Source of the DNA: Nitrospirae bacterium GWF2_44_13 | GTDB taxonomy: Bacteria; Nitrospirota; Thermodesulfovibrionia; Thermodesulfovibrionales; UBA1546 | Reading direction: 5' to 3' | NCBI GenBank assembly: GCA_001805105.1 | Contig: MHEE01000007.1 | Span: forward strand, 1-64,000 | DNA length: 64,000 bases | Shown: one piece after another, positions 18,517-62,012 of the stretch | Numbering within the stretch: position 1 is the first letter of the stretch | Layout of the letters: every line of letters begins with the position of its first letter | Position numbers and translations under genes: made by a program | The notes under the pieces: generated by a model | The model's input: only the letters and a program-made list of their open reading frames with translations | Databases searched by the model: none | Told to the model about the DNA's origin: nothing

Positions 18517-19698
18517 GTGACAGTAAGCCTTGCATGGATTATCCTTCTAGGGCTGTTTTCTGATTATCTGTTCAGAAAGCTGCGGCTTCCGGGTCTTATC
18601 GGTATGCTGTTTGCAGGAATATTACTGGGGCCTTATGTCTTTAATCTTATAGACCCTGTTTTGATGAAAGTATCATCTGACTTAAGGATGATAGCGCTGA
18701 TAGTTATCCTTTTAAGGGCAGGGCTGGCTACAAAAAGAGATACGCTTAATAGAGTAGGCAAGACAGCCATTCTTATGGGGTTTCTTCCTGCTGTATTTGA
18801 AGGTGCGGTCATTACACTTGTAACACCATTCTTTTTCAAGATGAGCATTCTTGAATCTGCCCTGCTCGGTTTTATTATCGCTGCTGTGTCGCCTGCGGTT
18901 GTTGTGCCCGCAATGCTGAAATTTATTGAAGATAACAAAGGGACAAAGAAGGGGATACCAACTTTGCTTCTTGCATCGTCATCTCTTGATAATGTGTTTG
19001 CAATAGTTGTTTTCTCTGGACTAATCAGCTTATTTGAAGGGAAAGGCGGGAATATTTTCCTTAAACTTCTGGAAATCCCCATCTCTCTCGTGGCAGGCAT
19101 TACCCTCGGAGCGGCAGCAGGTTTCATGCTTTATTGGGTATTCAAAAAGTATCAGCCAAGGGCAACCAAGAAAGGCATGATAGTTATCGGCACAGCCATT
19201 CTTCTTACCTGGCTTGAAAAATTCTTAAAGCCGTTTATCCCTGTTTCTGCGCTATCAGGTGTAATGACTATAGGATTTATCCTCCTTGAAAAATCAGAAC
19301 CCATTGCGCACAAGGTGTCACAGAAGCTCGGAAAGATTTGGGTCTTTGCAGAGATTATCCTTTTTGTGCTTGTCGGAGCACAGGTCAACATCCATGTTGC
19401 AGGTGATGCAGGGTTTTCAGGCATTGCAATAATACTTATCGGTCTGGCTGCACGGAGCATCGGGGTTTATGTCTCTCTCATCAAGACTGATTTTATCCTG
19501 AGGGAAAAACTCTTCTGCATAGTATCATACATTCCAAAGGCAACTGTTCAGGCTGCGATAGGCGCAGTTCCCCTTTCTGTTGGTGTTAAGGGAGGGGAAG
19601 TAATACTTGCTGTCGCTGTCTTGTCCATACTCTTTACCGCGCCGATAGGAGCAATGGCAATGAATGCTATCGGAAGGAAATTTCTGAAAGAGAGCTGA
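18517..19698 (+). CDS. Cation/proton antiporter (CPA family) under fluoride riboswitch control
   Basis: A 393-residue membrane protein with about 12 segments and the Na+/H+-exchanger fold (GLIGMLFAGILLGPYVF start, AAVSPAVVVPAMLKF in the middle, SSLDNVFAIVVFS). It starts with GTG, with GGAGG 6 nt upstream. CPA-type antiporters are among the gene classes linked to fluoride riboswitches, next to CrcB/Fluc and CLC-F, and are thought to help cells under fluoride stress. Whether this one moves fluoride or only balances protons or Na+ is not visible. No fluc or CLC-F gene is near. Confidence 0.85.
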   Translation: MTVSLAWIILLGLFSDYLFRKLRLPGLIGMLFAGILLGPYVFNLIDPVLMKVSSDLRMIALIVILLRAGLATKRDTLNRVGKTAILMGFLPAVFEGAVITLVTPFFFKMSILESALLGFIIAAVSPAVVVPAMLKFIEDNKGTKKGIPTLLLASSSLDNVFAIVVFSGLISLFEGKGGNIFLKLLEIPISLVAGITLGAAAGFMLYWVFKKYQPRATKKGMIVIGTAILLTWLEKFLKPFIPVSALSGVMTIGFILLEKSEPIAHKVSQKLGKIWVFAEIILFVLVGAQVNIHVAGDAGFSGIAIILIGLAARSIGVYVSLIKTDFILREKLFCIVSYIPKATVQAAIGAVPLSVGVKGGEVILAVAVLSILFTAPIGAMAMNAIGRKFLKES

Positions 19699-51278: not shown

Positions 51279-54200
51279 CTAAACTCTATTTTTAAACTCT
51301 CTTCCCTTCCACAGCATATAGATCGCGGGATAGATAACCAATTCCAGAATTGTTGAAGTAATAACTCCGCCCACCATTGGGGCCGCAATGCGTTTCATAA
51401 CATCTGCGCCTGTTCCGTGGCTGAACATTATCGGGATAAGGCCCGCAAGTATTACGCTCACAGTCATTATCTTCGGACGGATTCTTTTCACTGCGCCGTA
51501 CATTACTGCTTCTTTTAAATCAACAATGGAATTCAGCTTCCCTTCTTTTTTCCATCTTTCATACGCAAGCTCAAGATACAGGAGCATCACAACGCCTGTC
51601 TCGGCGTCAAGCCCTGCGAGCGCTATTATGCCCACCCATACCGCAATGCTCATGTTGTAATTTAAAAAATAAAGAAGCCAGAATGAGCCTACCAATGAAA
51701 ATGGCACTGCAAGGAGAACAATGAACGTCTTTGTGACTGACTTTGTGTTCAGGTATATAAGCACAAAGATTATCAGCGCTGTGAGAGGGATGACAATCTT
51801 AAGCCTTTCATGTGTTTTTACGAGGTGCTCGTATTCACCGCTCCATTCAATGCGGTAGCCTTCGGGGATTTTCATAGAGGCAACTTTCTTTTTCGCCTCG
51901 TTGACATAACCTCCGATATCCCTTCCCGTAAAATCTATATACACATAGGCTGTCAAAAGCCCTTCTTCACTCTTTATCTGTGTGGGGCCTTTTACAATCT
52001 TTATGTCAACAAGCTCTCCGAGAGGAACCTGAAGTGTTTTCATGGATACGGGCTGCACTGCTCTCATACCTGACTGACCGGCGGATGCTGAAGGCTGATT
52101 CATAACAGGCACGAGAACCCTTTTGAGTTTTTCAATGTCATTTCTCAATTCCCTTGAATAGCGGACATTTACAGGATAGCGTTCCCTGCCTTCAACAGTA
52201 ATTGTCAGGTTCATGCCTCCGACCGCAGTCTGCACTACTTCCTGAATGTCATCAACACTTATCCCGTATCTTGCGGCTTCTGCGCGTTTAATAATAAAGT
52301 CCAGGAAATAGCCTGTTGTCACTCTTTCCGCATAGACGCTTCTTGTGCCCGGAATATCTTTAATGATGTTTTCTAACTCCAGTCCAAGTTTCTCTATTTC
52401 CTCAAGCTTTGGGCCTAAAACCTTGATTCCTACAGGCGTTCTTATGCCTGTAGAAAGCATGTCAATGCGGGCTTTTATCGGCATAGTAAAACCACCCTCA
52501 ACGCCAGGCAAATTTACAGCATCTAATAATTCATTTTTAATAGTTTCAATTGTCATGCCTTTTCGCCATTCTTTTTCGGGTTTAAGATTAACAACTGTTT
52601 CGAACATCTCAAGCGGTGCAGGGTCTGTTGCCGTCTCCGCGCGGCCCGCCTTTCCGAATACCTGTGCAACTTCCGGGATTTTCTTCAGGAGCTTGTCCTG
52701 TATTTGAAGTGTTCTGGAAACCTCAGAAATAGAAGCAGCAGGCACAGTCGTTGGCATATATAAAAGCGCACCTTCGTTTAGAGGAGGCATGAATTCCGAG
52801 CCGAGTTTTATAGGCAAATCAAGTGTGATGTCAAAGAGTGACAATAAGCCAGGTAATATGAATATAATAAAAGTAATAACCATGATAAGTGTAGTTAGAA
52901 CAATTACCCCCTTCTTGAATCTTAATGCAAACTTTGCAATCGGTTCATATATCTTATGAAGCACAATACTCACGGGATTCTTATCCTCAGGACGAATTTT
53001 CCCCCTTATAAAAAGCGTCATCAACACAGGCGTCAACGTAATCGCAAGGAAAGATGAGAAAAGCATTGCAAAGGTCTTTGTGTATGCTAATGGTTTAAAT
53101 AATCTTCCTGCCTGCGCCTGAAGCGTAAATACAGGCAAAAATCCTACGGTAATTACAAGCAGCGCAAAGAAGAGGGAAGGGCCGACCTCCTTCGCTGCAT
53201 CAATAATCACTTCCACCCTGCTGCCATGCCTGCCGTGCGCTTCCCAGTCTTCAAGTTTTTTATGTGCATTCTCTACCATTATTATTGAGGCGTCCACCAT
53301 TGCGCCGATTGCAATTGCAATGCCGCTTAAGCTCATGATATTTGAAGTGACGCCGAGATAATACATGCATATAAAGGAGATGATGATTGCAATAGGCAAT
53401 GTTAGTATGACAACGAGCGCGCTTGGAAGATGGAATAAAAATACTATGCATACGACGCTGACTGCTATGGAGAGCTTTATTATCTCTTCTTTGAGTGTGT
53501 CAATGGAGCGGTGTATGAGGTCGCTTCTGTCATAGGTTGTGATAATTTTCATTCCCTTCGGAAGGCTCGGCTCAATATCATTTTTTATCTTCTCTTTTAC
53601 CCTGTCTATGACACTGAGGACATTCTCGCCGAATCTTATAACTACAATGCCTCCTGCCACCTCGCCTTTTCCGTCAAGCTCTGCAAGCCCCCTTCGTATC
53701 TCAGGCCCGAGCTGTATATTCGCAATGTCTCTCAGGAATACAGGCGTTCCCGCGCCGCCTGTGCCAATAGGAATATTTTTGAGGTCGTCAAGCGTTTTGA
53801 TATAACCTCTTCCTCTTACCATATATTCAATGCCTGAAAATTCAAGCACTCTTCCTTCCACGTCCTTATTGCTTTTCCTGATTGCATCCATAACTGTGGT
53901 TATCGGAAGGTTATAAGCAAGAAGCTTATTAGGGTCTATTGTTACCTGGTACTGCTTTACGAACCCGCCAATGCTTGCAACCTGAGAGACGCCCTGCACG
54001 CTCTCAAGGGCAAGTTTTATGTTGTAATCCTGTACAGAACGGAGTTCGGAGAGGTCGTGCCTGCCTGTCTCGTCAACTACAGCATAAGAGAATCCCCATC
54101 CCACGCTTGTTGCATCAGGCCCGAGCACAGGGTTGACATCAGAAGGGATTTTATTTTTTACTGACTGAAGGTATTCAAGAACCCTGCTTCGCGCCCAGTA

Positions 54201-54509
54201 GATATCCGTGCCTTCTTCAAAAATCACATAAATAAACGAGCTTCCAAGATAAGAAAAACCTCTTACAACCTGAACCTTTGGCGCTGCAAGGAGTGTTGAT
54301 GTTATCGGATAAGTTATCTGATCTTCAACGAGGTCAGGACTTCTTCCCGGCCATTCTGTATAGATGATAACCTGAGTGTCGCTGAGGTCAGGTATTGCAT
54401 CCAATGGAGTATTCTTAAGCGCCCAGTATCCCCATGCTGCGAGGAAAAATACCAACAGAAAGACGATGAATTTGTTTCTTGCGCTGAGTTCTATTATTTT
54501 AGCAATCAT
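51279..54509 (-). CDS. cusA: Heavy-metal RND efflux pump CusA (Cu+/Ag+)
   Basis: A 1076-residue HME-RND pump with twelve membrane segments. The TM4 signature GAMVDASIIMVENAHKKLE matches the monovalent-metal type. The three methionines known to bind metal in E. coli CusA have equivalents here: LLYMPTT, APLEMFET and RIDMLSTG. It moves Cu+ or Ag+ from the periplasm or membrane out through CusB and a TolC-like channel. It ends the cluster; cusB lies 101 bp upstream, with a large 7-bp inverted repeat between them. Confidence 0.94.
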   Translation of the reverse strand: MIAKIIELSARNKFIVFLLVFFLAAWGYWALKNTPLDAIPDLSDTQVIIYTEWPGRSPDLVEDQITYPITSTLLAAPKVQVVRGFSYLGSSFIYVIFEEGTDIYWARSRVLEYLQSVKNKIPSDVNPVLGPDATSVGWGFSYAVVDETGRHDLSELRSVQDYNIKLALESVQGVSQVASIGGFVKQYQVTIDPNKLLAYNLPITTVMDAIRKSNKDVEGRVLEFSGIEYMVRGRGYIKTLDDLKNIPIGTGGAGTPVFLRDIANIQLGPEIRRGLAELDGKGEVAGGIVVIRFGENVLSVIDRVKEKIKNDIEPSLPKGMKIITTYDRSDLIHRSIDTLKEEIIKLSIAVSVVCIVFLFHLPSALVVILTLPIAIIISFICMYYLGVTSNIMSLSGIAIAIGAMVDASIIMVENAHKKLEDWEAHGRHGSRVEVIIDAAKEVGPSLFFALLVITVGFLPVFTLQAQAGRLFKPLAYTKTFAMLFSSFLAITLTPVLMTLFIRGKIRPEDKNPVSIVLHKIYEPIAKFALRFKKGVIVLTTLIMVITFIIFILPGLLSLFDITLDLPIKLGSEFMPPLNEGALLYMPTTVPAASISEVSRTLQIQDKLLKKIPEVAQVFGKAGRAETATDPAPLEMFETVVNLKPEKEWRKGMTIETIKNELLDAVNLPGVEGGFTMPIKARIDMLSTGIRTPVGIKVLGPKLEEIEKLGLELENIIKDIPGTRSVYAERVTTGYFLDFIIKRAEAARYGISVDDIQEVVQTAVGGMNLTITVEGRERYPVNVRYSRELRNDIEKLKRVLVPVMNQPSASAGQSGMRAVQPVSMKTLQVPLGELVDIKIVKGPTQIKSEEGLLTAYVYIDFTGRDIGGYVNEAKKKVASMKIPEGYRIEWSGEYEHLVKTHERLKIVIPLTALIIFVLIYLNTKSVTKTFIVLLAVPFSLVGSFWLLYFLNYNMSIAVWVGIIALAGLDAETGVVMLLYLELAYERWKKEGKLNSIVDLKEAVMYGAVKRIRPKIMTVSVILAGLIPIMFSHGTGADVMKRIAAPMVGGVITSTILELVIYPAIYMLWKGREFKNRV

Positions 54510-54610: not shown

Positions 54611-55843
54611 TCAGTGCTTATGCCCGCCAAGCGGCTTTATCCCTTTTAACTGCGCCTCAGAGTCAATCAGAAAGTTGCCTGATGACGCCACTTTCTCTCC
54701 TGCCTTTATTCCTTTGAGAACTTCTACCATTCCCTCTGCCTTAAGCCCTAACATAACCTCTCTTGGTTCAAAATATCCTTCACCCTTGTCCACATAAACT
54801 ATCTGCCGTATCCCGGTATCAATCACAGCGCTTTCAGGGATAGCGAGCTTATTCCCCAAATTGATTTTTACCTCCACATTGGTGAACATCTGCGGTTTAA
54901 GCTGTCCTCCGGGGTTTGCTATTGTGAATCTTATTTTTGCTGTTCTTGTGTCGCCTGCAAGAGCAGGATAAATATAGTCAATGGTTGATGAAAATTCCCT
55001 GCCCGGGAAATAACTCAGGCTGATTTTTGCTGTCTGTCCTGTTTTCATTAAATGCACTTCATATTCATATATATCCGACACTATCCAGACCGTTGACAGG
55101 TCGGCGATATCAAAGAGCCTTTCTCCGGGCATGACGCGCATTCCCTGCAGAGCCGTCTTCTGCACAACATAGCCGCTTGCAGGGCTGAATATGGTTAATG
55201 TCCTTATCGGTTTTCCTGTCTCTTCAATTTTTTTAATCTGGGCGTCACTTATATCCCATAACCTAAGCCTCTGCTTTGCCGCTTCAGTTATTGCTTCAGC
55301 ATCCTTTGAAAGCATTTTGCCTACAGCGCTGTCTTTGTCTGCGCCCTGTTTTGTCCACTTGAGCACGTTTAAAAATTCCTGCTGTGTTGCGACAAGCTCA
55401 GGGCTGTAAATCTCCGCCAGCGGCTCGCCTTTTTTGACATACTTTCCTGTGTAATTAACATGGAGTTTCTCAATCCAGCCTTCGAATTTTGTATTGACAG
55501 TCGCAATCCTTCTTTCATCGTATTCAATACGGCCCACGGTTCTGATAATTTTCTGCAGCGGCTTTACAGACGCCACAACTGTTTTTACGCCTATCAACTG
55601 CTGCTTGTCTAAATGTATCTCCACTGTTGGAGTCTCCTCTGTCTGCTCTTTCTGCTGTGTTTCAACCTGAGCCTGAGGCTCTTTACTTTCTGAGGTATGC
55701 CCCTGATGTGCCGGAGCAGACGTTTGCGTAGATGCCTGAGGTTTGCTTTTTGCAGGGCTTTTCAGGAACTCCGGCTTTAAGAGATAGAATATTAATCCCG
55801 CTGTCAAAATCAGCCCGATGATTATGAGATTTCTTTTTTTCAT
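54611..55843 (-). CDS. cusB: Efflux periplasmic adaptor CusB
   Basis: A 410-residue membrane-fusion protein: an N-terminal membrane anchor/signal, a low-complexity linker with His (SAPAHQGHTSESKE), then barrel-sandwich, hairpin and beta-barrel domains (GWIEKLHVNYTGKYVKKGEPL near residue 132). It ends in the family tail SGNFLIDSEAQLKG followed by GGHKH. It links CusA to the outer-membrane channel and hands over metal; the two His-rich ends may bind metal. It overlaps the TolC-like gene by 4 bp. Confidence 0.93.
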   Translation of the reverse strand: MKKRNLIIIGLILTAGLIFYLLKPEFLKSPAKSKPQASTQTSAPAHQGHTSESKEPQAQVETQQKEQTEETPTVEIHLDKQQLIGVKTVVASVKPLQKIIRTVGRIEYDERRIATVNTKFEGWIEKLHVNYTGKYVKKGEPLAEIYSPELVATQQEFLNVLKWTKQGADKDSAVGKMLSKDAEAITEAAKQRLRLWDISDAQIKKIEETGKPIRTLTIFSPASGYVVQKTALQGMRVMPGERLFDIADLSTVWIVSDIYEYEVHLMKTGQTAKISLSYFPGREFSSTIDYIYPALAGDTRTAKIRFTIANPGGQLKPQMFTNVEVKINLGNKLAIPESAVIDTGIRQIVYVDKGEGYFEPREVMLGLKAEGMVEVLKGIKAGEKVASSGNFLIDSEAQLKGIKPLGGHKH

Positions 55844-57243
55844 TTTTCTTTTTCTCCCTGAATGACGCTCGCCTCAATTTTATTCTGAAGAGCAGGGCGT
55901 ACTGAGTGCTGATTGTCCGCCCCGGCGGATCCGCCAGAGGCTGGACTGACTGCCGTTATAGCCTCAAGCCGTGCAACTGCCTTTTCCATTTCTATGAACT
56001 GCCCCCAGTATAAAAGCTCATAGTCAATGAGTGATTTAAGCCTTGTTATGACGGTTATTGCCTCGACTTTTCCGGTTACATATCCTGAAATTGCGAGTTC
56101 AAAATCCTGATATGCCTTGGGTATAAGGCCATTCCTGTACAGCTCCGTTAATTTTTCTGCCGTCTTAATCATAGAGTAGTTTTCTCTTATATTGGAAGAC
56201 AGCATTAGCTTAACCGCCTCAAGTTCGTGCTTTGCCTCTGAGAGGGCCGACTCAGCCTCAAGCACAGCCATCTTTTGTTTTGTTTTATAAAAAATAGGTA
56301 TATTGATTGTCGTTGTGAGGCTCCACATGTCTTTAAACTCTCCCCTCCGCTCAAAGACGGAGCCGGCAATGGTGAAATCAGGATAATACTCTTTCTCAGC
56401 CATGTTAACCTTTGCCTTTGCCGCGGCTATCATCTTTGCTCTTGATTTTATCAATGGAGAATTTGAGTGCGACATCTTAATAAGCTCGTCAATATTATAG
56501 ATGTATGAGGCATGGGCAGGCTCAACCGGCATTCCGAGAGGAGAATTGACATCTCTTCCAACAGCCGTGTTCAGCATTGCCTCTATTGATTGCAGTTTTT
56601 GCTTCAGCATTTCCTCTTTTTCAAGGAGCATGTATTTCTCTGTCTGAGCCATTAATACTTCCTGCTGCGGCGCCATGCCTGATGAATATCTTGCAATGGC
56701 AGCGTCTTCTATCCTTGAAAAAAGTATGGCCTTGTCGCGTATAAGGCCGATATTTTTATGGGTAAGGAACAGGTCGTAGTAAAGTTCTTTTATCCTTGCT
56801 ATTGTTGCGAGTTTTGCAAGCTCATACAATGCCTTCAGGCTTTCGGAATCTCTTGTTGCCATTTCTTCTTTTAATGAGAGTTTTCCCGGGAACAGGAATG
56901 TCTGCGACGCAGAATACATCCATTGGGCATCAGGGGATTTCCCATAGTTAAACCTATCGTATCCTTCATTCTGATAACCGAACATAAACATCGGGTCGGG
57001 AAGGCTTCCTGCCTGAGGTATCTTATATTTCGAGGTGGATACCTTTAATCCGGATACAATTAGGTCTTGATTATTCTTCAGCGCCTCGTCTATCAGGGGC
57101 TGAAGTTTCAGTTCCTCGGCAAGGGCACTGCTAGCGAACAGCAACAACGATGCAAGATACAAGATGCATGATACACGATATTTTTTTTGTCTGAATCCTG
57201 AATCCTGCATCCTGTATTCTGATTTTTTAGTGTGCGTCCACAT
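55840..57243 (-). CDS. cusC: TolC-family outer-membrane efflux protein whose signal peptide is partly repeat-encoded
   Basis: A 467-residue outer-membrane factor with the duplicated long-helix pattern of TolC/CusC (LKNNQDLIVSGLKVSTSKYKI-like start, GRDVNSPLGMPVEP in the middle). The signal peptide runs to ALA near residue 42. Residues ~7-32 are encoded by an inverted 7-bp repeat, so the basic region and the first half of the hydrophobic core (KKYRVSCILYLAS) come from repeat DNA. The ATG at 57243 overlaps the end of the YtkA-like gene by 17 bp; a second ATG lies in the repeat at codon 12. Confidence 0.88.
   Translation of the reverse strand: MWTHTKKSEYRMQDSGFRQKKYRVSCILYLASLLLFASSALAEELKLQPLIDEALKNNQDLIVSGLKVSTSKYKIPQAGSLPDPMFMFGYQNEGYDRFNYGKSPDAQWMYSASQTFLFPGKLSLKEEMATRDSESLKALYELAKLATIARIKELYYDLFLTHKNIGLIRDKAILFSRIEDAAIARYSSGMAPQQEVLMAQTEKYMLLEKEEMLKQKLQSIEAMLNTAVGRDVNSPLGMPVEPAHASYIYNIDELIKMSHSNSPLIKSRAKMIAAAKAKVNMAEKEYYPDFTIAGSVFERRGEFKDMWSLTTTINIPIFYKTKQKMAVLEAESALSEAKHELEAVKLMLSSNIRENYSMIKTAEKLTELYRNGLIPKAYQDFELAISGYVTGKVEAITVITRLKSLIDYELLYWGQFIEMEKAVARLEAITAVSPASGGSAGADNQHSVRPALQNKIEASVIQGEKEK
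57149..57225. repeat. Inverted heptanucleotide repeat, GATNCAN class, inside the cusC signal sequence
   Basis: Left arm gatgcaa, gatacaa, gatgcat, gatacac; a 14-nt turn starting gatatttttttt; right arm ctgaatc, ctgaatc, ctgcatc, ctgtatt, ctgattt. Same arrangement as at 22672 and 54521. Confidence 0.88.
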
Positions 57244-57616
57244 TGAATTTTACCGTTGTTGTCTTTCCGCCGCGGGTTATCTTTACGGCAACATTCCATG
57301 CGCCTGACATTGAAAGGTTCATCTTTGCCTTATACTCATAACCTTTGAGTTCTGCGTCTGCCTTATAGTTCATTGCAGGCATCCCAGGCATCGCCGGCAT
57401 GGAATATTCAATCCTCACCTTTGCATCTGTCATATATTTGCCTGATGCATCTTTTATTTCTATTTCGATATTGTTATCACCGACAACAGGAGGGTTTTTG
57501 TCGATTTTTATCTCTACATCGTATTCCCCTGCCTTTTTCTTTACCTCATAGTCCTTTGCATACGCGATTCCTGCTATTAAGAGCAGTATTATCGTTAATA
57601 CAGTTAATCTTTTCAT
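57227..57616 (-). CDS. Periplasmic FixH/YtkA-like metal-associated protein
   Basis: A 129-residue protein with a signal peptide (cut near AYA, residue ~20) and one immunoglobulin-like beta domain of the YtkA/FixH type: VVGDNNIEIEIKDASGK, then the Met-rich loop YSMPAMPGMPAM near residue 75, and GAWNVAVKITRGG. Met-rich MPxMP loops in this family are linked to copper proteins. Together with CusABC it may carry or buffer Cu+ or Ag+ in the periplasm. GGAGG precedes the ATG. Confidence 0.8.
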   Translation of the reverse strand: MKRLTVLTIILLLIAGIAYAKDYEVKKKAGEYDVEIKIDKNPPVVGDNNIEIEIKDASGKYMTDAKVRIEYSMPAMPGMPAMNYKADAELKGYEYKAKMNLSMSGAWNVAVKITRGGKTTTVKFNVDAH

Positions 57617-57641: not shown

Positions 57642-58091
57642 TTAATGGTTATGATGGTGCTGATGATTTTCATGACCTGAATGTCCTTTGCTTTCTGCTT
57701 TTTCCATTTTCTCAATATATTTCTCCGGGTTCTTCTTGAACTCTTCAACGCACCCAGGGCAGCAGAAGCTGTAGATTTTGCCTTTATATTCGTATGTTTG
57801 TTTCATCTTTTCATCAATCTTGTCGCCGCTTACCGGACATATTTTATTCCCAACCACTTCTGCCATATCTTCCATTGGTTTGTCGGACATTTTCACCTTC
57901 GTATCCTGCTTGTCTGACATAGCTTTTTCTTTTGCATTATCATTCTGTTTATCATGCTGGTTTCCATCAGACTTGTCGTCTCCCATTTTACCGCCCATCA
58001 TTCCGCCCATCATAGCATCTGAAAGTACGGGATAACTCACCAGAAAACCGACCACCAGAATGCTTAAAAATATACCAGATATCCTTTTCAC
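57642..58091 (-). CDS. Periplasmic YHS-domain metal-binding protein, Met/His-rich
   Basis: A 149-residue protein with a signal peptide, a Met/Gly-rich segment after it ([14 protein letters not shown]), a charged low-complexity stretch, then a YHS-type domain with [11 protein letters not shown] near residue 84 and the pair FCCPGC near 112, and a His-rich tail ([11 protein letters not shown]). All three features suit binding of Cu+, Ag+ or similar ions. It starts with GTG; its AGGAGGG overlaps the stop of the selenoprotein frame, so the two are translationally coupled. Confidence 0.85.
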
Positions 58092-58103
58092 TATTCAACC
58101 CTC

Positions 58104-58505
58104 CTATCGTTTGTATTCTTTTTCTACAATCTCTTTTATCTTTTTTACCGGATAACCTTTTTTGTAAAGTTCGGAAGCCCGCAGGGCCTCCCCGATACAA
58201 ATGTCTCACATTGCCGCATGATTGTCAACATAACAGCTTAAAAGGCTCTTGTGTTTGAATGCCGGAGATTCTTCGCAATAACAATAGCAGTATATGCTGT
58301 CAAGAACCCATGGAATCTCTTTCGCAATCTGATACGCCTTTTTAATTTTAGCGTTATCGGAAAAGATGTTCGGGTCAAGTGTGGGCCTTTTCTCTCCCAT
58401 CCTCAGAGATTCGTCTTTCACAGGCTTTTGAGCGAATGTATCGCTTGCCGCTGTAAATAGAATTGTCACAGAAATCAGCACTAAAAATGTACAAAACTTT
58501 TTCAT
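58104..58505 (-). CDS. Candidate selenoprotein, PCYCGC-like periplasmic protein with U-x-x-C motif
   Basis: Read with the in-frame TGA at 58206-58208 as selenocysteine, the protein has 133 residues: a signal peptide (to about residue 25), the Cys-rich motif IYCYCYCEES followed by HKSLLSCYVDNHAAM, then U100-D-I-C103, then a helical tail (EALRASELYKKGYPVKKIKE) ending at a TAG. Without read-through the protein stops after 99 residues. I recall PCYCGC-type relatives with Cys at this position, so U-x-x-C replaces a C-x-x-C redox or metal site. Support: the frame stays open for 33 sensible codons after the TGA, the TAG overlaps the next gene's AGGAGGG, and a 16-bp SECIS-like hairpin starts 4 nt after the TGA. 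Probably a periplasmic redox or copper partner of the Cus module. The alternative is a nonsense mutation or sequencing error. Confidence 0.78.
58161..58201 (-). promoter_or_regulatory. SECIS-like hairpin after the in-frame UGA
   Basis: In the mRNA, 4 nt after the UGA: UUUGUA pairs with UACAAA, UCGG with CCGA, then a GG bulge, then AGGCCC with GGGCUU, closing a UGC loop. The apical loop begins 23 nt after the UGA and has G at its second position, within the spacing known for bacterial SECIS elements. It lies in the coding sequence, as bacterial SECIS do. Confidence 0.65.
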
Positions 58506-58573: not shown

Positions 58574-58981
58574 TTACTCCTTCTCGGTCTTTTTCAGACT
58601 TTTTATGTAATTAACGAGATGCCATCTTCCATTTTTTGTTATCTCCTTTTTAAATCCCCTCATGGCCGTTCCTTTAGTTCCGTCTGTTATAACATGGAAT
58701 ATCTCGCCGTCGGTGTCTCCATGAATCCACAGCCCATCCGTGAGATAGGTTTTTTCGTTGCCTCTGCTCGATTCTCCATGACATGAAATGCAGTGTTCTT
58801 CATAAAGCCTCTTCCCTTTGGCGATGGACTCTTCGGTCTTTGGAATAGGGTTCTTGACCTTTGCGTATTCCTTGTGTTTGTGCGTATGGGGCTTATGTAC
58901 GTGTTCGTCCGTTTGAGCAAAGGCATTGCTAAAAGCAAGGGAAAACACTACAGATATAATCAAAGCTGCTATCTTTTTCAT
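58574..58981 (-). CDS. Periplasmic c-type cytochrome (class I, mono-heme)
   Basis: A 135-residue protein from the ATG at 58981, which has GGGAGGA 5 nt upstream; an ATG 12 codons further up lacks both. It has a signal peptide (MKKIAALIISVVFSLAF...), a His-rich spacer (EHVHKPHTHKHKE), the heme motif CISCHG near residue 65, and a likely axial Met in GTAMRGF near 108. It carries electrons in the periplasm; in this cluster it may link metal redox chemistry or the selenoprotein to the respiratory chain. The His-rich spacer may bind metal. Confidence 0.88.
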   Translation of the reverse strand: MKKIAALIISVVFSLAFSNAFAQTDEHVHKPHTHKHKEYAKVKNPIPKTEESIAKGKRLYEEHCISCHGESSRGNEKTYLTDGLWIHGDTDGEIFHVITDGTKGTAMRGFKKEITKNGRWHLVNYIKSLKKTEKE

Positions 58982-59018
58982 TATTCCTCCCTGCAGGTTT
59001 AATGAACGATGATTCATT

Positions 59019-59296: not shown

Positions 59297-59623
59297 TTAA
59301 TATATGGATCTTATCTTTCCTGTTTTGCAGTCGAGAACAATCCTGTCAATTAAATCATTGTCTTTGTAAACGTCTGCTTCTATGAACCGTCCCTCTTTTT
59401 TAGTTACGGTAATAGTCATGCCTTTCTCTTTGTAATACTTTTCAAGCGCCCTGACAGCCTCTTCATGCTTTACCTCTTTTTTGCAATATCCGTATTCACC
59501 GCACAATGGGCATGAAACGCCGTAGGGTGTAACGCCTTTCTCCGGCGCGTCTTTTTTCGTTTCTGCATAGGCATCGCCTGTCAGGATTCCTGTCAAGACA
59601 ACTATAAATAACCATATTTTCAT
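59297..59623 (-). CDS. Unknown periplasmic protein with CPLC motif
   Basis: A 108-residue protein with a signal peptide (cut near AYA), a Cys motif VSCPLCGEYGYCKKE near residue 38-50, and a C-terminal PepSY-like beta hairpin (GRFIEADVYKDNDLIDRIV, CKTGKIRSIY). The three clustered Cys could bind a metal or act in redox. It is the first gene of the metal cluster after the regulator pair, with a TTCAT direct-repeat element 24-38 bp before its ATG. Function not assigned. Confidence 0.65.
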   Translation of the reverse strand: MKIWLFIVVLTGILTGDAYAETKKDAPEKGVTPYGVSCPLCGEYGYCKKEVKHEEAVRALEKYYKEKGMTITVTKKEGRFIEADVYKDNDLIDRIVLDCKTGKIRSIY

Positions 59624-59916: not shown

Positions 59917-61287
59917 TTAAATATGCTCCCAGGCGCTTTTTATCGGCAGGGACACTCTGAATGTTGTTCCTTTGTTTATTATGCTTTTGACCTCAACCCT
60001 GCCGGCCATTACTTCAACAAGTTCTTTGACTATTGCAAGGCCAAGCCCCAGACTCTCGGTATCTGCTTTGGCCCCTCTGTAAAAACGGTTGAATATCAAA
60101 GGAATCTCGTTTTCAGGTATTCCCCTGCCTGTGTCCCTTATCTCAATAAAAAACATTTCTCCTTCGGTTCCGTAGTCAATACTTACACCGCCTTTTTCCG
60201 TGAACTTCAGGGAATTGGAGATTATGTTTCTTGTTATCCTTTCAAGTTTTTCAATATCCGTGGAAATAAAAAGGCCGTCTGCCCTTAGAATCTTTATATC
60301 AAGCCCTTTTTGTTTAAATGCAGGAAGCATCTCATTGCAGATTCCCGTAAGAAATTCCATGAGGTTTATCTCCACGGTTTCTCCCTTTGTAAAGAAACTC
60401 GCCTCTGCCATCGTAATATCTTCTATGCCTTTGACAAGCTTTATCAGCCTGTCAATCTCGTTTTTGATGTTCTCCAGCCCTTTTTCTCTTTCTATCACTC
60501 CGTCAGCTATAGCCTCTGCATGGGCCTTGAGGATTGTCAGAGGCGTTCTTAGTTCATGCGCAACATTTGAAAAAAGATGTTTCCTCAATTCCTCCTCTCT
60601 CTGCAGAGATTCTGCCATTTTATTGAAAGCTGCCGACAATTTCCCTATCTCATCATGGGATGTAGTACTTGTCCTTGCTTTGAAATCTCCACCTGCAATC
60701 TTATCCGCTGCCTTTTTTAAGTCCATTACGGGTTTTGAAAGATAGCGGCTCAGGAGGAAGGCGATTAACAGCGAGCCTCCGCCTGCAATCAGGAATGAGA
60801 CATAAAGGAAATTTTTTGTCCTTTTTTTGAATATGGATTCTTTTTCTTTTATTTCCTGTTTCTGAAATGGCTGTGAAAGGAGTGTCCCGATTTTTTTGCC
60901 CTTTGCATAAAGCGGGTAGTCAGTGAATTTTCCCTCTGCTTCGTGCGCGTGAACATGGAAGTGCTCATCCATCCTTAGCTTCATGGATTCAGAAAGGGAT
61001 TCCATCACATCGTGAGATGAGATGATTTCCTTGTCGGTATTATCAAGAACCTTTACGTTAAGTCCGAGCATCATGGCCCAGTGTATGGATTCAGAGAGAG
61101 AGCCCTTGTTCCATTTACCGTCAGAATAGCTTCCCTCAACAGATGCAAGTGTCCAGTAAAACTGGTCTTCCCTCACTCCGCTGACATAATTGTCAAAATC
61201 CCTGATTATCAGCCATTCAAAGATGAAGTTAGAGAGGAGCGCTGCGAATATTACTACCATGAAAGCAAGAAAGATTTTAGTCTTCAT
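59917..61287 (-). CDS. Sensor histidine kinase of the metal-cluster two-component system
   Basis: A 456-residue kinase: TM1 (~6-26), a periplasmic domain of ~140 residues with a His-rich patch (MDEHFHVHAHEAEG near 108) likely to sense metal, TM2 (~163-183), HAMP, HisKA with AHELRTPLTILKAHAEAI near residue 245, and HATPase with DTGRGIPENEI and LGLGLAIVKEL. The ATG at 61287 overlaps the regulator's stop (TGATG). It resembles CusS/BaeS-type kinases. It probably controls the efflux cluster downstream. Confidence 0.88.
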   Translation of the reverse strand: MKTKIFLAFMVVIFAALLSNFIFEWLIIRDFDNYVSGVREDQFYWTLASVEGSYSDGKWNKGSLSESIHWAMMLGLNVKVLDNTDKEIISSHDVMESLSESMKLRMDEHFHVHAHEAEGKFTDYPLYAKGKKIGTLLSQPFQKQEIKEKESIFKKRTKNFLYVSFLIAGGGSLLIAFLLSRYLSKPVMDLKKAADKIAGGDFKARTSTTSHDEIGKLSAAFNKMAESLQREEELRKHLFSNVAHELRTPLTILKAHAEAIADGVIEREKGLENIKNEIDRLIKLVKGIEDITMAEASFFTKGETVEINLMEFLTGICNEMLPAFKQKGLDIKILRADGLFISTDIEKLERITRNIISNSLKFTEKGGVSIDYGTEGEMFFIEIRDTGRGIPENEIPLIFNRFYRGAKADTESLGLGLAIVKELVEVMAGRVEVKSIINKGTTFRVSLPIKSAWEHI

Positions 61288-61976
61288 CAATCCCGCACTC
61301 CTATAAATTTATATCCAGCCCCATAAACTGTTTTTATGAAAACAGGCTCTTGGATGTTATCCTCTATCTTGTGTCTGATATTCTTTATATGTGCGTCAAT
61401 GACCCTGTCATAGCCTTCAAAGTCATATCCCTGAACCGTATTTGTAAGCTGGAGCCTGTTCAGGACAGCGCCGGGCCTTTCTGCAAGGCAGAGCAGTATC
61501 TTGAATTCAGTTGTTGTAAGGGAAACAGGCGCTTCTCGTTTTTTAACCTCCATTGAGGTGGTGTCTATTTTAAGGATGCCTTTGTTAAAAGAAAGAATCT
61601 TTTTCTCTCCTTTCTTTGTTCTTCTTAGATGTGCCTTTACTCTTGCAATGAGTTCTCTCGGGCTGAAAGGTTTGACAATATAGTCATCGGCGCCGATTCC
61701 GAGCCCTTTCACTCTTTCGTCTTCCGAACTTTTTGCAGTGAGCATGATTATCGGGACGTCTGATATTCCCCTTATTGAACGGCAGACCTCTTCGCCTTCA
61801 ATGTCAGGAAGTTTAAGGTCAAGGATTATGAGGTCAAATCTGTCTTTAATTAACTTAAGAGCCTCTCTGCCTGTCTCTGCAACTTTAACGCCGAAGCCCT
61901 CTCTTTCAAGATAGGTCTTCACAATATCGGATATCTTTCTTTCGTCTTCAACTATGAGAATTTTTTCGTTGTTCAT
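61287..61976 (-). CDS. OmpR-family response regulator
   Basis: A 229-residue regulator: receiver domain with acceptor Asp in LIILDLKLPDIEG near residue 50 and the switch Lys in DDYIVKPFSPREL, then a winged-helix DNA-binding domain (SLTTTEFKILLCLAERPG, VIDAHIKNIRHKIED, TVYGAGYKF). The ATG at 61976 starts the protein at its first conserved residues. A TATAAT ends 7 nt before it and no Shine-Dalgarno is seen, so a leaderless transcript is likely. Earlier in-frame starts (ATG 61985, TTG 62012) overlap the promoter. Confidence 0.9.
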   Translation of the reverse strand: MNNEKILIVEDERKISDIVKTYLEREGFGVKVAETGREALKLIKDRFDLIILDLKLPDIEGEEVCRSIRGISDVPIIMLTAKSSEDERVKGLGIGADDYIVKPFSPRELIARVKAHLRRTKKGEKKILSFNKGILKIDTTSMEVKKREAPVSLTTTEFKILLCLAERPGAVLNRLQLTNTVQGYDFEGYDRVIDAHIKNIRHKIEDNIQEPVFIKTVYGAGYKFIGVRD

Positions 61977-61983
61977 TGGTTTC

Positions 61984-62012
61984 ATTATAAGTGCTGAGGC
62001 AGGTTTGGGCAA
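61984..62012 (-). promoter_or_regulatory. Promoter of the OmpR-type two-component genes
   Basis: On the minus strand TTGCCC (62012-62007), 17-bp spacer, TATAAT (61989-61984), then 7 nt to the ATG at 61976, which would itself be the transcription start. Confidence 0.5.

Follow-up and report, generated by a model that had tools for sequence, protein, structure and literature searches.

The CYCXC family protein (hypothetical protein OS_HP4) is listed in a 2026 review (PMC13188914) with the domain PF13798 and the motif UxxC. For it the review cites Zhang and Gladyshev 2007 (NAR 35:4952), on the Olavius algarvensis symbiont. NCBIfam curates it as NF041379 (OS_HP4_CYCXC, 'CYCXC family (seleno)protein'). 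Our literature searches turned up neither a function for the CYCXC family since its naming in 2007 nor a tie to copper, nor any literature on NF041379; searches for work tying PCYCGC (PF13798) to selenoproteins found none, and those joining copper efflux or CusA to selenoproteins returned nothing relevant.

Here we describe a gene from Nitrospirae bacterium GWF2_44_13 that lies in a 64,000-nucleotide stretch of DNA (the whole of which we call the window). Judged by its sequence, it belongs to an already known selenoprotein family, CYCXC (OS_HP4), and lies in a Nitrospirota genome. Its product scores 126.5 bits against NF041379, where the cut-off is 90 (122.7 bits in the search of the genome), and 41.6 bits against PF13798 (PCYCGC), where the gathering cut-off is 25. 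The original prediction had presented a probable new selenoprotein of which no description was known. Neither point is supported: the family is already curated as NF041379 and is listed as CYCXC/OS_HP4 in PMC13188914, which cites the 2007 paper. Our main reading, to which we assign a probability of about 0.85, is that the gene encodes a known CYCXC selenoprotein in which UGA specifies selenocysteine (Sec), and that the protein is periplasmic, where it most likely helps to handle copper(I) or thiols alongside a Cus-type pump.

Translation of the minus strand from 58505 to 58104 confirmed the predicted frame: 99 residues, a stop codon, and then 33 residues (DICIGEALRA...KEYKR) before TAG. With the TGA translated as Sec, the predicted U-x-x-C is found as U100-D-I-C103, and the CYCXC motif reads CYCYC at residues 73–77. 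Together the Cys, His and Sec residues make up a set of CxCxC (C73, C75, C77), H85, C91, H96, U100 and C103. A standard ORF finder truncates this selenoprotein gene at residue 99, and the conserved C-terminal part is lost. An apparent N-terminal signal peptide (approximately residues 1–25) and the lack of a lipobox were both read by eye. Given this signal peptide, the product is probably exported to the periplasm, as the prediction had it.

Table 1. Features of the selenoprotein locus and its neighbours in the window
Feature	Position	Strand	Basis or remark
Gene of the CYCXC-family selenoprotein (133 aa, U100)	58107..58505	-	NF041379 and PF13798 matches, invariant columns
In-frame UGA, almost certainly read as selenocysteine	58206..58208	-	Codons in the family column and Sec machinery in the genome
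TAG ending the selenoprotein	58104..58106	-	Overlaps ribosome-binding site of the next gene (GGAGGG)
SECIS-like hairpin	58161..58201	-	8-bp apical stem 58191-58173 conserved, loop 58183-58181
YHS-domain protein, GTG start	57642..58091	-	PF04945, 45.3 bits
YtkA-like secreted protein	57227..57616	-	PF13115, 67.4 bits
Outer-membrane efflux protein (CusC-like)	55840..57243	-	PF02321
RND periplasmic adaptor (CusB-like)	54611..55843	-	PF16576, 274.8 bits; TIGR01730 over cut-off
CusA/CzcA family heavy-metal RND pump	51279..54509	-	TIGR00914, 1090 bits against a cut-off of 701
Small secreted cytochrome c, upstream neighbour	58574..59017	-	PF13442 and PF00034
108-aa secreted protein with CPLCGEYGYC	59297..59623	-	No family match
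Histidine kinase and response regulator genes, upstream	59917..62012	-	ORF list, named from sequence

When 396 genomes from the phylum were searched with PF13798, 78 gave matches, most with exactly one internal TGA. We cut out 82 family members and read the codon at the Sec column in each: 59 have TGA, 15 TGC, 7 TGT and one the ambiguous NGA. All members but one have TGA or a Cys codon at position 100, and the homologues extend beyond it. The 22 Cys codons agree with the original prediction, which had Cys here in PCYCGC-type homologues. NF041379 matches all 51 aligned members, and C73, C75, C77, H85, C91, H96, U/C100 and C103 are invariant in the family alignment. The family tree requires three changes between Sec and Cys, and this natural split supplies matched pairs with which to test what selenium adds.

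Three members stand apart. One from the same genus, which lies outside the alignment (L121; G104 C11:60519-60773), has CYCYY for CYCYC and has lost C77. A paralogue in the single-contig genome G272 (L135; C1:1192480-1192710) has TGA at both motif positions, giving UNLU with two Sec; its hairpin differs and has a GGUC loop, and the same genome also holds one single-Sec and two Cys paralogues. The third (L067; G172 C62:50548-50784) is a Cys member whose place in the tree is within the second Sec clade. Its hairpin is weaker, and it is probably a Sec-to-Cys reversion, although its branch is long.

The predicted CusABC-type cluster does adjoin the gene (Table 1): the pump matches TIGR00914 above its cut-off, although the CusA/CzcA models do not fix the transported metal, and the adaptor and outer-membrane components match PF16576 and PF02321. 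The CusB subfamily model PRK09783 gives the adaptor 137 bits against a cut-off of 390. Across the phylum, CusC/CusB-like genes lie downstream on the same strand in 20/59 Sec members and 0/22 Cys members. In the clade with this arrangement, the 32 genomes checked have only 0–3 CusA-type genes each, so chance alone would give far less adjacency than is seen. The Cus-linked members share synteny through kinship, however, and the 20 cases are therefore not 20 independent events. The link is also clade-limited: CusA matches are absent from most of the second Sec clade, which shows little association with Cus genes. A YtkA-like gene likewise lies downstream of 16 of the 59 Sec members and of none of the 22 Cys members, a similar YHS gene is near seven Sec members, and five loci have nearby a P-type ATPase of family F22, which its sequence marks as copper-type. 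Other family members lie near thioredoxin-like or unrelated genes.

Upstream, the gene for the 108-residue CPLCGEYGYC protein precedes 15 of the 59 Sec members, and some 20 Sec members have histidine kinase/response regulator homologues at distances of up to ~8 kb. In members of both Sec clades the CPLCGEYGYC gene is a neighbour of the selenoprotein gene and of the histidine kinase/response regulator genes. Elsewhere in the window, a fluoride riboswitch (RF01734, 18381-18474 on the plus strand, 48.9 bits) precedes a 393-residue membrane protein (18517-19698) that has the appearance of a cation/proton antiporter.

More distant Cys homologues, 29–40% identical, are encoded on Burkholderia plasmids. 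Two of them were examined, and both lie in copper-resistance clusters: on plasmid pBMUL01 the neighbours are genes for an RND pump, CusF (PF11604) and DsbD, and in B. contaminans they are CueR and multicopper oxidase genes. The adjacency to Cus genes, in Nitrospirota and on Burkholderia plasmids, is a direct, testable lead to the function of the family.

We infer a copper role for the selenoprotein. A role in copper(I) or thiol handling is the most likely one because the gene is repeatedly encoded with CusCBA-type efflux genes. In this small helical protein the CxCxC, H, C, H and UxxC residues, all of them invariant, probably form a metal or redox site, in which Sec would be a more reactive residue or a softer ligand in place of Cys. 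After export, the product would join periplasmic copper(I) or thiol handling alongside the CusCBA-type pump. A narrower proposal, which we put forward tentatively and at less than even odds, is that in Nitrospirota the CYCXC selenoproteins handle copper(I) in the periplasm as partners of CusCBA-type pumps, and that Sec serves them as a copper ligand or copper-redox residue. If true, this would be the first functional assignment for the CYCXC family, as far as we found.

Two other functions deserve weight. The protein could be purely metal-binding or a metallochaperone, with Cu(I), Ag(I) or Hg(II) held by Sec as a soft ligand and no catalysis. The invariance of CxCxC, H, C, H and UxxC in the alignment and the metal efflux genes next door both favour this idea, and we place it not far short of an even chance; against it, many members have no metal-efflux neighbours.

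Alternatively, the protein could be a periplasmic thiol-disulfide oxidoreductase with UxxC as its catalytic pair, copper being merely the stress context. UxxC does resemble thioredoxin-type redox motifs. Moreover, thioredoxin-like proteins of the TlpA/ResA type (F3, named from sequence) are encoded near 10 Sec and 8 Cys members, cytochrome c maturation-like genes (also named from sequence) lie near several Cys members, and dsbD genes lie near the Burkholderia homologues. However, the predicted structure is helical and without strands (mean pLDDT 89.6, and 91–98 from residue 31 on), which is not a thioredoxin fold, and sequence and fold searches of the PDB found no solved structure resembling the protein at E ≤ 0.001. 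The six further invariant Cys and His residues are also more in keeping with a metal site than with a simple dithiol. We consider the oxidoreductase plausible, with the odds somewhat against it. Copper(I) or thiol handling beside the pump is the reading that we retain.

Decoding of the UGA at 58208-58206 as Sec is, from the genomic evidence, nearly certain. The hairpin immediately 3′ would guide SelB and Sec-charged tRNA-Sec in decoding it at position 100, and translation would terminate at the TAG. The source genome (1.99 Mb in 18 contigs) contains all four of the genes sought: selA (627 bits), selB (386 bits), a tRNA-Sec with a UCA anticodon (selC), and selD, which has one in-frame TGA of its own near the N-terminus (SCAGUAAK). 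Among the genomes searched, selA was found in 54/56 with a Sec copy vs 7/18 whose copies are all Cys (p=5e-7). The two Sec genomes that gave no selA match are G350 (L124) and G041 (L114), possibly through assembly gaps.

It is very improbable that the UGA is an ordinary stop, leaving a 99-residue protein followed by a decayed frame or a chance extension. True, an ORF finder closes the gene there, and a 33-codon open frame is by itself unremarkable. What is remarkable is its conservation. Homologues carry on past this point with the same residues, 22 of them with a Cys codon in place of the UGA, and in comparisons with same-genus species dN falls far short of dS over the 32 codons that follow the UGA (for example 0.027/0.85 and 0.054/0.84). 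By these rates, the codons 3′ of the UGA are under purifying selection. A complete Sec machinery and a SECIS-like hairpin that is present in the Sec members, not in the Cys members, also speak against a stop.

Folding of 58208-58155 placed a hairpin just 3′ of the TGA, where the original prediction had put it, with an 8-bp apical stem, a UGC triloop and a 6-bp lower stem. The predicted position stood; the predicted 16 bp came to 14 bp in this model, and the 23 nt from UGA to loop to 22 nt. The hairpin has an energy of −17.9 kcal/mol (z −2.14 against dinucleotide shuffles, with 7/200 as stable), and its apical stem a z of −2.87 against synonymous recodings of the same peptide, 1.5% of which were as stable. 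A search of the window against Rfam, at gathering thresholds, gave no SECIS match. Bacterial SECIS elements are often specific to a species.

The Sec and Cys members differ sharply here. Computed on the 33 nt that contain the apical stem, mean energy is −12.65 kcal/mol in Sec members and −6.20 kcal/mol in Cys members (p=1e-10), and the median synonymous-recoding z is −2.56 vs −0.32. The stem pairs are formed in 93.4% of cases in TGA members vs 44.6% in Cys members, the third pair being broken in 15/59 Sec members. Because the stem is nearly invariant, shuffling the hairpin letters between sequences has little power as a control (0.934 vs 0.913), and we turned instead to synonymous recoding and to the difference between Sec and Cys members.

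A sequencing or assembly error hiding TGT or TGC has next to no chance of being right, given that TGA occupies this column in 59 genes, that further genomes of the genus (G104, G213 and G380) contribute three of these, and that the hairpin co-occurs with TGA. Taken together, the machinery, the codon column, the hairpin contrast, the selection and the co-occurrence with selA leave little room for a stop or a sequencing error. We also rejected a general change of code (TGA as Trp or Gly): selA, selB and the CusA gene of the source genome have no internal TGA, and 16 of the 59 TGA family genes terminate further on with a TGA stop, so that TGA is still also a stop in those organisms.

How, then, does this selenoprotein compare with known systems? 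CusF, the periplasmic copper chaperone, is likewise a small periplasmic protein encoded with CusA and CusB genes. The likeness is one of setting only: our protein has no CusF family match and different conserved residues. The PCYCGC lipoproteins (PF13798; Parageobacillus, PMC13068155, and Burkholderia plasmids) share a homologous domain and conserved Cys residues with it. However, the annotation of those examples is that of ordinary Cys proteins, in some cases lipoproteins, whereas the protein described here would carry Sec and has no lipobox by eye. The remaining comparison is with NF041379 (OS_HP4) itself. The protein exceeds the curated cut-off and has the same CYCXC and UxxC motifs, and we found nothing that separates it from the family. 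What this locus adds is its CusCBA-type neighbourhood, which goes unmentioned in those parts of the family literature available to us.
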